Virus record (IMG/VR): IMGVR_UViG_3300025645_000028
Span: 1 to 35,471 of that record
Origin: a virus
Strand: one strand, 5' to 3'
DNA length: 35,471 nucleotides
How positions within the stretch are numbered: the first letter of the stretch is position 1; every line of letters begins with the position of its first letter. Shown piece by piece: positions 17,425-22,967 of this stretch. The notes beneath the pieces were generated by a model, which was not told the DNA's origin, searched no databases, and was given only the letters and a program-made list of their open reading frames with translations. The position numbers were made by a program, and so were the translations under genes.

Positions 17425-17432
17425 TATATTTG
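17425..17432 (+). promoter_or_regulatory. -7 promoter box of RNA copy A
   Basis: A perfect TATATTTG. The -33 position 19 bp upstream reads TAG (17403-17405) rather than TTG. Copy B has the same TAG-N19-TATATTTG arrangement. Confidence 0.65.
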
Positions 17433-17524
17433 CAGTTCAAGTAACGTAGGACTTACTAGAAATTTTATTGAAACCTCTGTTGAACGATGCCTTTCCTACG
17501 TGGCTAATTCGACAGGGGTTTTTT
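17433..17524 (+). ncRNA. Pseudoknotted leader or small RNA, copy A
   Basis: This stretch of about 92 nt begins at a TATATTTG promoter box and ends in a terminator. The terminator stem pairs 17471-17484 with 17508-17521 (14 bp, two wobbles) and runs into six T residues. Its 23-nt loop contains TCCTACGT (17494-17501), which pairs perfectly with ACGTAGGA upstream (17444-17451). The two stems interleave, so the RNA would form a pseudoknot or switch between two folds. The connector AGAAATTTTA lies at 17458-17467 and is identical in copy B. The transcript ends 14 bp before the replisome organiser ATG. It may therefore be a free small RNA, or an attenuator for replication genes. I match it to no family that I know. 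Confidence 0.68.
17471..17524 (+). terminator. Terminator hairpin of RNA copy A
   Basis: A 14-bp stem (17471-17484 with 17508-17521) ending in a six-T run (17519-17524), with a 23-nt loop. It lies between the DnaA-like gene and the replisome organiser. Confidence 0.82.
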
Positions 17525-17538
17525 AACGCATTATAATT

Positions 17539-18237
17539 ATGAGTAATCAAGGATGGATAAAGCTCCATAGGGGGTTATTAGATTGGGAATGGTATGACGA
17601 CGTAAATACTAAAATAGTGTTCTTACATTTGATTTTAAAGGCTAATCACAAGGAAGTAAAGTACAGAGGCGAAACTATAAATGTTGGTTCTTTACTTACT
17701 GGTCGTGAATTATTATCTAAGGAAACTGGGTTAAGCGTGCAACAAATTAGGCGTGCGATTTCCAACCTAGAAACAACCAGAGAAATAACCACTAAAAAAA
17801 GCAGGAAAGGTACTGTTATTCAGATAGTTAAATACAAAGATTATCAAGTGGCAACCAGTAAAACAACCGCAAAACAACCACAAAACAACCAGAAAGCAAC
17901 CACTAACAAGAATGATAATAATGAAAAGAATGAAAAGAAACTTAGTGACTTTGAATTTTTCTGGGAGAATTACCCTACAAAAATTGGTAAGGCAAAGTGT
18001 TTAAAAAAGTTCTTAGATTTAAAGCAAGAAGATGTAGACAAGATAAAATCAACTATAAAAGATTTTGCTGCTTATAAACAATTTAAAGGTTGGAATCATC
18101 CAAACCCTGAAACGTATCTAAATCAAGAACGTTGGAATGATGAGATAAAAACACAAGAACATAAACAAAAAGATTTACCAATTGACCCTATAGTGGCACT
18201 AGCCCAAAAGGCAATGAAAGAAAACGGACTGATATGA
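17539..18237 (+). CDS. Replisome organiser / replication initiation protein
   Basis: A 232-residue protein of the phage replisome-organiser type. The N-terminus WIKLHRGLLDWEWYDDVNTK, followed by LHLILKANHKE, is a hallmark, and a winged-helix segment follows (LLSKETGLSVQQIRRAISNL, about 57-77). A Gln/Asn/Lys-rich linker (about 105-140) leads to a C-terminal DnaD-like or helicase-loading part (FFWENYPTKIGKAK onward). Such proteins bind the origin, frequently within their own gene, and load the helicase encoded next. The two genes overlap by 4 bp (ATGA). Transcription has to read through the terminator of RNA copy A or begin elsewhere. Confidence 0.78.
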   Translation: MSNQGWIKLHRGLLDWEWYDDVNTKIVFLHLILKANHKEVKYRGETINVGSLLTGRELLSKETGLSVQQIRRAISNLETTREITTKKSRKGTVIQIVKYKDYQVATSKTTAKQPQNNQKATTNKNDNNEKNEKKLSDFEFFWENYPTKIGKAKCLKKFLDLKQEDVDKIKSTIKDFAAYKQFKGWNHPNPETYLNQERWNDEIKTQEHKQKDLPIDPIVALAQKAMKENGLI

Positions 18238-19890: not shown

Positions 19891-20159
19891 TAACATTTGA
19901 AAAAGAAACAGACGTACATTGGAAAGTACTTCGCTACGGTTCACCTATTGGAAGTCTAGGAATCAATAAAGCGTCTCTAAGAGTCTATATCGGTGACAGT
20001 GATATATTTGTATATCGAAAGAACGTAAACACGTCAGAACGGCTTAAAATGGTCTTAGAAATGATTTATCAGCAGAAGGAAGGAGTACAAAAACGATTAG
20101 AGAAGATGGAAGTAGATAACAGTATTAAATTTAAAAGTAAAGAATATGCCAAAATGTAA
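19887..20159 (+). CDS. Protein of 90 residues, unknown
   Basis: Not recognised. A mixed alpha/beta protein with a helical, charged C-terminal half (MIYQQKEGVQKRLEKMEVDN). It overlaps both neighbours (4 bp and 14 bp) and is translated with NinG, so it may be a small accessory of recombination. There is no motif to support this. Confidence 0.65.
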   Translation: MITFEKETDVHWKVLRYGSPIGSLGINKASLRVYIGDSDIFVYRKNVNTSERLKMVLEMIYQQKEGVQKRLEKMEVDNSIKFKSKEYAKM

Positions 20160-20664
20160 AAACTGCGGAAATAAATTCACGCCAGTAAGCTTTAACAGAA
20201 AATACTGCATCGAGAATGAGTGTAACGATTTATACTACGAAGAACTAAAAAAGAAGATGTTCAAGAGTTGGAATAAAGAAAAGAAAGTCAAGAAAGAGAA
20301 TCTTCAAACAGTTCAAGAACTCATGAAGCTAACGCAGATAATCTTTAACAAGTGGATTCGAGAACGTGACAAAGGGCAACCGTGCATAAGTTGTGGAAAT
20401 ACTACACATAAAAAAGTAAACGCTGGTCACTTTGTAGCAAGCGGAAAGAGTAAGTTTTTGACGTTTAACGAGGATAACGTGCATCTACAATGTGAGTACT
20501 GCAATACGCACTTACACGGGAACTTAATTGATTATAGAATCAACCTGATAAACAAAATAGGCTTAGAGCGTGTGGAATGGTTAGAAGCTAACAGGCATAA
20601 AACAAAGAAGCACACGAGAGAAGAATTAAAAGAAATTCAGGAAAAATATAGAAGTTTGAAATAA
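20146..20664 (+). CDS. ninG: NinG/Rap-type recombination nuclease
   Basis: A 172-residue protein with the layout of lambda NinG (Rap). A zinc cluster lies at the N-terminus (CKNCGNKFTP with Cys4 and Cys7, then CIENECND), a basic linker follows, and then a CISCG...HFVASG...LQCEYCN segment with a His-rich metal site (about 84-125). Rap is a structure-specific endonuclease acting on recombination intermediates. The Rad52-like annealase and YqaJ exonuclease encoded further on would make its substrates. The ending EELKEIQEKYRSLK is typical of the family. Confidence 0.82.
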   Translation: MPKCKNCGNKFTPVSFNRKYCIENECNDLYYEELKKKMFKSWNKEKKVKKENLQTVQELMKLTQIIFNKWIRERDKGQPCISCGNTTHKKVNAGHFVASGKSKFLTFNEDNVHLQCEYCNTHLHGNLIDYRINLINKIGLERVEWLEANRHKTKKHTREELKEIQEKYRSLK

Positions 20665-20670
20665 AATGCT

Positions 20671-20678
20671 TATATTTG
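20671..20678 (+). promoter_or_regulatory. -7 promoter box of RNA copy B
   Basis: A perfect TATATTTG just after the NinG stop. The -33 position exactly 19 bp upstream reads TAG (20649-20651), the same departure from TTG as at copy A. Confidence 0.65.
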
Positions 20679-20761
20679 TCTTGTGTCTGGTCGCACGATA
20701 AGAAATTTTACAATTCCAATCAATGAAGCGACGACCAGCGTGGATTTGGTTGGTTTTTTTT
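20679..20761 (+). ncRNA. Pseudoknotted leader or small RNA, copy B
   Basis: A stretch of about 83 nt with the same design as copy A. It follows a TATATTTG box. Upstream CTGGTCG (20687-20693) pairs with CGACCAG (20732-20738), which lies in the 22-nt loop of a terminator hairpin. That hairpin pairs CCAATCAA (20716-20723) with TTGGTTGG (20746-20753) and ends in eight T residues. The connector AGAAATTTTA (20701-20710) is identical to that of copy A, while the sequences of both stems differ. This is the covariation pattern of a conserved RNA structure. The transcript would end 4 bp before the ATG of an AP2-HNH nuclease. Confidence 0.68.
20716..20761 (+). terminator. Terminator hairpin of RNA copy B
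   Basis: An 8-bp stem (20716-20723 with 20746-20753, one wobble) followed by eight T residues (20754-20761). It lies immediately before the ATG of the following HNH gene. Confidence 0.75.
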
Positions 20762-20765
20762 ATGT

Positions 20766-21257
20766 ATGGAAATTTGGAAAGATATTCCTAATTACGAGGG
20801 GATGTATCAGGTTAGTGATTTAGGTAGGGTTAAAAGCCTTAAGAGAAAAGGATGTAAAAACGATAAGATTCTTAAAAATAACACTGATAATTATGGGTAT
20901 CGAAATGTAAACCTATCTAAAGACAAGGTGTTAAAAACGTTTAAAGTTCATAAGATAGTGGCAATAATGTTTTTAGGTCATGAGCCAAACGGACATAAAG
21001 TAGTAGTTGACCACATAGATAACGATAAGTCAAATAATAAGTTAAGCAATTTACAATTAATAACACAACGAGAGAACTTATCTAAAGACCGTAAAGACTG
21101 TTCGTCAAAATATATAGGTGTATCTTGGAGCAAGGCGTCTAATAAATGGTTGTCTCGTATTTTAACAAATGGAAAACCAAAGTTTTTAGGTTCTTTCATA
21201 GACGAATTAGAGGCTGCTGAAGCATATCAAAAAGAATTAAAGAAAATAAATATATAA
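20766..21257 (+). CDS. Homing endonuclease, NUMOD4-HNH-AP2
   Basis: A 163-residue free-standing homing-type nuclease with three recognisable parts: the NUMOD4 motif at the start (EIWKDIPNYEGMYQVSDLGR), an HNH core (VHKIVAIMF, then VVVDHIDNDKSNNKLSNLQL, about 75-102) and an AP2 DNA-binding domain (KYIGVSWSKASNKWLSRI onward). The terminator of RNA copy B ends 4 bp before the ATG, so expression needs read-through. The insertion separates NinG from the rest of the recombination block, as expected for a mobile gene. Confidence 0.87.
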   Translation: MEIWKDIPNYEGMYQVSDLGRVKSLKRKGCKNDKILKNNTDNYGYRNVNLSKDKVLKTFKVHKIVAIMFLGHEPNGHKVVVDHIDNDKSNNKLSNLQLITQRENLSKDRKDCSSKYIGVSWSKASNKWLSRILTNGKPKFLGSFIDELEAAEAYQKELKKINI

Positions 21258-22370: not shown

Positions 22371-22967
22371 ATGGGAACATTTGAAGAAGTATTAGAAAAA
22401 AGAAAGCAAAACGAAACTGAGGACGTAATACCTCACAATCAAGATTTAAGCTTATTAAGTATGCCGTTGTCTATTGAAGATATTGACTTTAGGGTTCAAT
22501 CAGTTAACAAGGGCGGTTACGCTACAATTTTAGCTTATAAGGATGCTAGGGTTGATATGAATAGACTTGATAAGGTTGTTGGTTCTATGTTTTGGAAAAG
22601 AGAGATGTTAGATGACAATAAAAGATGTAGAGTATCTATTTACAATAAAGACCTTAAGGAGTGGATATGTAAGGAAGATGTAGGTACTGCTAGTATGACT
22701 GAGAAAGAAAAAGGTTTAGCTTCTGATAGTTTTAAACGTGCTTGTTTTAATTGGGGTATAGGTAGGGAACTATATGATTATCCATTGATAAGTATAAAGT
22801 TAAAAGATAACGAATTTGACAATGTGACAAAGAAAGCTACTTTCGGATTCAAGTTAAAGGAGTGGATTTGGTTTAGTCAGTTTAATAATGGTAAACTGAA
22901 CTATTTAGCTGCAAAAGATGAGACTGGCACTTTAAGGTTTGAACATGGTAAATATTTAAAAAACTAG
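22371..22967 (+). CDS. Rad52-family single-strand annealing protein
   Basis: A 198-residue annealase of the Rad52/22 type. The diagnostic region ASDSFKRACFNWGIGRELYD is at 117-136, preceded by a KGGYATILAYKDARVDMNRL strand-turn element (48-67). It would anneal complementary single strands exposed by the exonuclease encoded 1 bp downstream. Together they form a two-component recombinase comparable with lambda Beta and Exo. It is shorter than eukaryotic Rad52 and lacks its C-terminal half, as is normal in phages. Confidence 0.82.
   Translation: MGTFEEVLEKRKQNETEDVIPHNQDLSLLSMPLSIEDIDFRVQSVNKGGYATILAYKDARVDMNRLDKVVGSMFWKREMLDDNKRCRVSIYNKDLKEWICKEDVGTASMTEKEKGLASDSFKRACFNWGIGRELYDYPLISIKLKDNEFDNVTKKATFGFKLKEWIWFSQFNNGKLNYLAAKDETGTLRFEHGKYLKN

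Follow-up and report, generated by a model that had tools for sequence, protein, structure and literature searches.

The window analysed here, that is, the whole stretch of DNA, is a 35,471-bp virus record in which two copies of a short structured element were located (Table 1). Copy B lies within the interval from ninG to an HNH gene and is composed, in this order, of a TATATTTG box, a first hairpin (P1), a linker that is A-rich then U-rich, a terminator-like hairpin (P2) and a U8 tract; copy A shows the same order of parts and precedes a DnaD-like replication gene. All the parts that a sequence-only reading had placed in copy B were recovered where it had placed them. The same reading had assigned an AP2-HNH gene downstream: its HNH nature is borne out by Pfam (NUMOD4 + HNH_3), while an AP2 domain was not detected. 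A gene for a Rad52/22-family single-strand annealing protein is found in the same cluster.

Table 1. Coordinates of the two copies, their parts and neighbouring genes in the window, and of a second conserved hairpin in other phages.
Feature	Position	Strand	Remarks
Copy A, whole	17425-17526		
-7 box TATATTTG, copy A	17425-17432	+	
P1 hairpin, copy A	17440-17457	+	stem AGTAA/TTACT, loop CGTAGGAC
5' kissing strand ACGTAGGA, copy A	17444-17451		
Linker AGAAATTTTATTG, copy A	17458-17470	+	
P2 terminator hairpin, copy A	17472-17520	+	13-bp stem; z -3.5
3' kissing strand TCCTACG, copy A	begins 17494		in P2 loop
DnaD-like helicase loader/replication gene	17539-18237	+	downstream of copy A
NinG/Rap endonuclease gene	20146-20664	+	upstream of copy B
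-7 promoter box TATATTTG, copy B	20671-20678	+	Bacteroidota-type
Copy B, whole	20679-20761		
P1 hairpin, copy B	20681-20698	+	5-bp stem TTGTG/CACGA, 8-nt loop TCTGGTCG
5' kissing strand CTGGTCG, copy B	20687-20693	+	
Linker TAAGAAATTTTACAATT, copy B	20699-20715	+	holds AGAAATTTTA at 20701-20710
P2 terminator hairpin, copy B	20716-20753	+	arms CCAATCAA 20716-20723 and TTGGTTGG 20746-20753; 22-nt loop
3' kissing strand CGACCAG, copy B	20732-20738	+	in P2 loop
U8 tract of intrinsic terminator, copy B	20754-20761	+	
NUMOD4-HNH_3 homing-endonuclease-like gene	20766-21257	+	downstream of copy B; Pfam; start codon 4 nt past U-run
Rad52/22-family annealing protein gene	22371-22967		
Hairpin around GGTAATCTTAAAACC, other phages	L183:10471; L184:10357; L175:12755; L180:1368; L052:4705; L091(-):507; L099:7020; L104:7377; L245		past U-run in L245

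The element had been described as a pseudoknotted RNA. The pairing between its loops is real (in copy B, the P1 and P2 loops are complementary over 7 bp, CTGGTCG/CGACCAG), but the topology is one of intramolecular kissing hairpins rather than of a plain pseudoknot, because in both copies a hairpin, P1, has the 5' kissing strand as its loop, as judged from folding and by-eye pairing. A promoter element with TAG at 19 nucleotides upstream of the box, also proposed from the sequence, is not conserved across 37 homologues, where the only recurring features are TATATTTG, which the search imposed, and a T-rich dinucleotide immediately 5' of it. The box nonetheless precedes members found without requiring it.

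Considered in isolation, copy B is ordinary: its nested folding without the kiss is unremarkable compared to shuffled sequences (z -0.47), and AGAAATTTTA alone occurs at chance frequency (13 matches vs 14.9 expected, one mismatch allowed). Both observations would suit two unrelated terminators, each preceded by a heptamer complementary by chance, and it is therefore the family-level statistics that decide against chance. A first scan of IMG/VR, which used the box, the linker and GTGG and demanded neither kiss nor terminator, recovered phage loci, and in members for which no T-run had been required, P2 is followed by at least four consecutive U. With a second pattern limited to promoter, linker and T5, a kiss of at least 7 bp was present in 42 of 59 distinct matches, versus 7% when the upstream and downstream halves were swapped between loci. 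Altogether, these scans, in which the kiss was not required, yielded dozens of phage loci, among which about 18 different kissing sequences of 6–9 nt occur, each matched in the P2 loop; the addition of protein-, BLAST- and model-anchored searches raised the number of distinct 5' kissing strands to 37. Moreover, a descriptor using neither linker nor promoter returned 88 raw matches in 1.24 Mb, compared to 2.8 in shuffled sequences (about 30-fold); it overlooks weak-P1 and AU-only variants. The second copies that it revealed in L028, L073, L108 and L109 carry TATATTTG, although the box was not requested, and the linkers of members reached by such other routes are degenerate, A-rich/U-rich versions.

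The paired regions are too divergent for a MAFFT alignment of all members to be usable, and covariation was examined instead with a sub-group alignment (A2) and our own descriptor. In A2, P1 and the kiss show 21 cells changed on both sides vs 7.2 after shuffling, and the covariation reaches 0.565 against 0.141 for shuffled and 0.055–0.185 for slid alignments, with two rows being out of register by one base; the P1 pairs themselves covary. In 38 members, which have 37 distinct 5' strands between them, 99% of the kiss is paired, compared to 47% when strands are exchanged. Since part of this set was chosen by complementarity, the members anchored by pattern, BLAST or model provide the cleaner evidence. 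Model R1, built on P1 and a portion of P2 and blind to the kiss, was trained on a set including copy B (E = 1.2e-10) and excluding copy A, which it detected in the window with E = 1.5e-4. Other members outside the training set are Polaribacter P12002L (E = 2.5e-9), the HNH element of tooticki (4.5e-8), L204 (1.5e-7), and L188 and L199 (both about 2e-4); the kisses of members found in this way are new yet intact. Most tellingly, the elements of the cultured Flavobacterium phages tooticki6-1 and mumin6-1, retrieved by BLAST, differ at 9 of 95 positions, of which four make up two adjacent compensated kiss pairs, and morran9-1 has a third compensated version. Among close cultured relatives, the kisses read GTGAGACG/CGTCTCAC, GTGGAACG/CGTTCCAC and GTGAGAAG/CTTCTCAC, with pairing intact despite double changes.

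These family-wide statistics and the covariation contradict the chance reading, which the compensatory changes in cultured relatives already refute and to which we attach virtually no probability. The sequence-only reading had argued for selection on structure and had named the contrary outcome, namely only two copies and stems breaking in close relatives; the searches gave the opposite, with dozens more members and pairing that survives double changes. As dozens of related phages keep loops that differ and still match perfectly, comparative evidence confirms the kissing-hairpin RNA as a real family under selection on structure. Both copies of the window display the full set of family features, i.e., the box, P1, the A/U linker, P2 with its U-run and the loop complementarity.

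Regarding its distribution, the family has cultured members in Flavobacterium phage 11b, the vB_FspS_ phages (Muminvirus/Lillamyvirus), Cellulophaga phages phi19:1 and phi10:1 and Polaribacter phage P12002L, while further members come from many IMG/VR contigs. Two copies with differing kisses per genome are found in the window, L245/L048, L028, L073, L108 and tooticki. A scan of 84,980 prokaryote genomes from GTDB with a matched pattern produced 35 matches, and not one of these had a credible kiss, vs 28 of 32 for viral sequences, from which we conclude that this is an element of phages, seldom or never present in the prophages sampled. A model search of Flavobacteriaceae genomes was empty as well, but it is weak since few candidates were scored per genome.

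At every locus whose context was read, an open reading frame follows on the strand of the element, its start codon usually lying 4–60 nt beyond the U-run and, measured from the stem, mostly 9–60 nt away. The type of site occupied by copy A is conserved, the next gene encoding a DnaD-like protein, a replication initiator, a primase/helicase or an SF2 helicase, and this linkage spans unrelated lineages having unrelated P1 and P2 sequences. The type of site occupied by copy B is the one before HNH genes: the strict descriptor passed directly upstream of 14 of 59 HNH homologues, four more apparent members were recognized by eye (L192, L210, L222 and L237) and the element also precedes the HNH gene gp32 of tooticki. 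The suggestion of a common control element thus fits, with replication genes and HNH genes preceded by it in several phage genera. The suggestion of a mobile cassette fares less well. It agrees with the position before related HNH genes, but the sole candidate empty site is not clean: tooticki has both the element and the HNH gene, filifjonk has neither, and the SSB gene that follows differs as well, so that a joint insertion of element and HNH gene is not proven. For this reason, we do not regard the mobility of copy B as proven.

No part of the window matches Rfam 15 at E ≤ 1, and an Rfam search of 13 HNH loci returned only tRNAs and a sub-threshold abiF match away from the element. HEARO, or IscB omega RNA, resembles the element in being an RNA adjoining an HNH gene; this candidate was rejected given the lack of an Rfam match at that threshold and an HNH gene of the NUMOD4-HNH_3 type, not IscB. 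Homing genes of T4-like phages (I-TevI, segB, mobE) are limited by leader RNA structure or terminators, but these leaders either hide the ribosome site or amount to simple hairpins (PMC2988022), whereas the present element has a promoter box of its own and ends in a kissing-loop terminator. One promoter of Gifsy-1 gives both the terminated sRNA IsrK and a read-through mRNA (PMC4825925), an arrangement that our element would share, its phage promoter serving the downstream genes by read-through as well as producing a short RNA that terminates. IsrK differs in belonging to a Salmonella prophage and in pairing in trans with orf45, and the text consulted describes no intramolecular P1–P2 kiss (PMC4825925). 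We found no sequence relation between the two, nor any description of a flavophage RNA of kissing-hairpin shape in the open-access literature. Hence, this is apparently a new regulatory RNA family among phage leader and small regulatory RNAs, with an unusual architecture, an intramolecular kissing loop joined to an intrinsic terminator. It is widespread in Bacteroidota phages, several of them cultured, and absent from Rfam and from the open literature searched.

As for its function, we consider it about an even bet that the element is a promoter-leader-terminator gate, which would release a short stable RNA and allow limited read-through to the downstream gene. Transcription would start from the -7 promoter and the first nucleotides would fold as P1, followed by the single-stranded A/U-rich linker and by the intrinsic terminator P2, whose loop would kiss the P1 loop over 7–8 bp. 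Termination at the U-run would turn most transcripts into compact RNAs of about 80–90 nt with both ends protected, while the remaining minority would continue into the gene lying a few nucleotides further on, be it a replication initiator/helicase or an HNH homing gene. The kiss would govern the way in which P2 folds, and with it the frequency at which polymerase stops. Placed in front of the replication operon and of homing genes, the element might then act as both an expression gate and an insulator. Its nearest working counterparts are IsrK of Gifsy-1 and the leader hairpins or terminators of the homing genes of T4-like phages. The gate draws on a terminator-like end, a promoter-like box right before P1 and a start codon just beyond, all of which are observed; proximity to the downstream gene is weak evidence for cis control, as compact phage genomes place genes after any intergenic element. 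We do not call the element a riboswitch or a classical attenuator, because in 19 members nothing upstream competed for the P2 5' arm better than shuffled sequence does (mean p 0.58); the classical two-state model, which needs an alternative pairing that excludes the terminator, was rejected on this 5'-arm result. The family also provides an entry point to the way in which phages of Bacteroidota, where gene control is little understood, time replication operons and restrain homing endonucleases. The rapid, compensated turnover of the kissing pair makes loop-swap mutants a direct test of function.

The kiss, compatible as it is with the terminator, fits a stand-alone trans-acting phage sRNA equally well, an alternative that we hold to be unlikely. 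The 80–90 nt RNA would be the product, the kiss would close a seed in the P1 loop until a target RNA or protein is met, and the neighbours would be incidental. A promoter box directly 5' of P1 and a terminator-like end in the members read speak for it, as do a kiss and a P2 able to coexist, a P2 5' arm without competitor and an A/U linker that could serve as a protein site. Yet, the kissing loop is hypervariable among close relatives, which is not expected of a seed whose target is conserved, nothing else in the window is complementary to the copy A kiss, and a few families of downstream genes recur beside different element sequences. We are more doubtful about an intermolecular dosage control, in which terminated RNAs would kiss nascent leaders of their own type and promote termination before replication genes, much as antisense RNAs control the rep genes of plasmids, with loop diversity separating co-resident elements and competing phages. 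One RNA does have both complementary loops, which turn over fast in a compensated manner, the element does sit before replication genes, and predicted cross-kissing is much weaker than self-kissing in most two-copy genomes tested. There is also a precedent in the P4 CI RNA, which halts transcription of replication genes through pairing with seqA/seqC (as summarized in PMC4825925). The likeness would extend to RNA pairing with premature termination before phage replication genes, but the CI RNA is processed from a leader and pairs in trans, whereas here both partners are loops in a single short RNA that carries its own terminator. Against dosage control, the intramolecular kiss should out-compete the one in trans, predicted cross-kissing is substantial in the L245/L048 genome (-9.2 vs -11.4/-10.4 kcal/mol for self-kissing), and HNH genes have the element too.

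Still less probable is a processive antitermination or polymerase-binding RNA (cf. HK022 put and Bacillus EAR), whose folded 5' RNA would modify the elongating polymerase and let it pass its own and later terminators. An RNA starting at the promoter, a compact fold, a recurring linker and a place in front of long co-directional operons are compatible with it, but conserved bases are few and single-stranded, and such an RNA would be superfluous ahead of a single HNH gene. Moreover, put RNAs are not known to carry a terminator of their own, which further counts against this reading. Beyond these alternatives, it is conceivable, though rather speculative, that the self-matching and rapidly changing loops are private address tags by which a phage's, or a cassette's, leader RNAs sense their own kind through RNA–RNA contact. 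If true, replication and homing genes would be under dosage- or superinfection-specific control without cross-talk between elements.

Returning to the gate that we favour, in unrelated flavophages where a small open reading frame follows the U-run, a second conserved short hairpin around GGTAATCTTAAAACC is present between that run and the start codon (Table 1), a position which suggests that read-through leaders matter. This hairpin is possibly a separate leader element or a protein site.

Several other observations were made in the course of these searches. The kiss of L025:6436-6538 is shorter (6 bp) and compensated with respect to L018, GGGCAG/CTGCCC becoming GTGCAG/CTGCAC. Another pseudoknot-like RNA, devoid of a U-run, precedes HNH genes in L178 (13090-13195) and L195; it reads TCGTAGC-GAAGTCTAATTAACTTC-...-CCTGCTACGATTCTTTAAC and its outer stem covaries (TCTATGTT/AACATAGA vs CTCAAGT/ACTTGAG). 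A third type of structured leader, GTAGCCCATCGGGG...CCCGATGAGGCTAC, occurs about 100 nt upstream of HNH genes in L187, L193 and L197, and has no Rfam match in L187 or L197. Finally, positions 4337-4372 of L222 (- strand) match the Rfam family abiF just below threshold (36.5 bits vs a cut-off of 37), and the same phage contig carries an HNH gene whose kissing-type leader is richer in GC.
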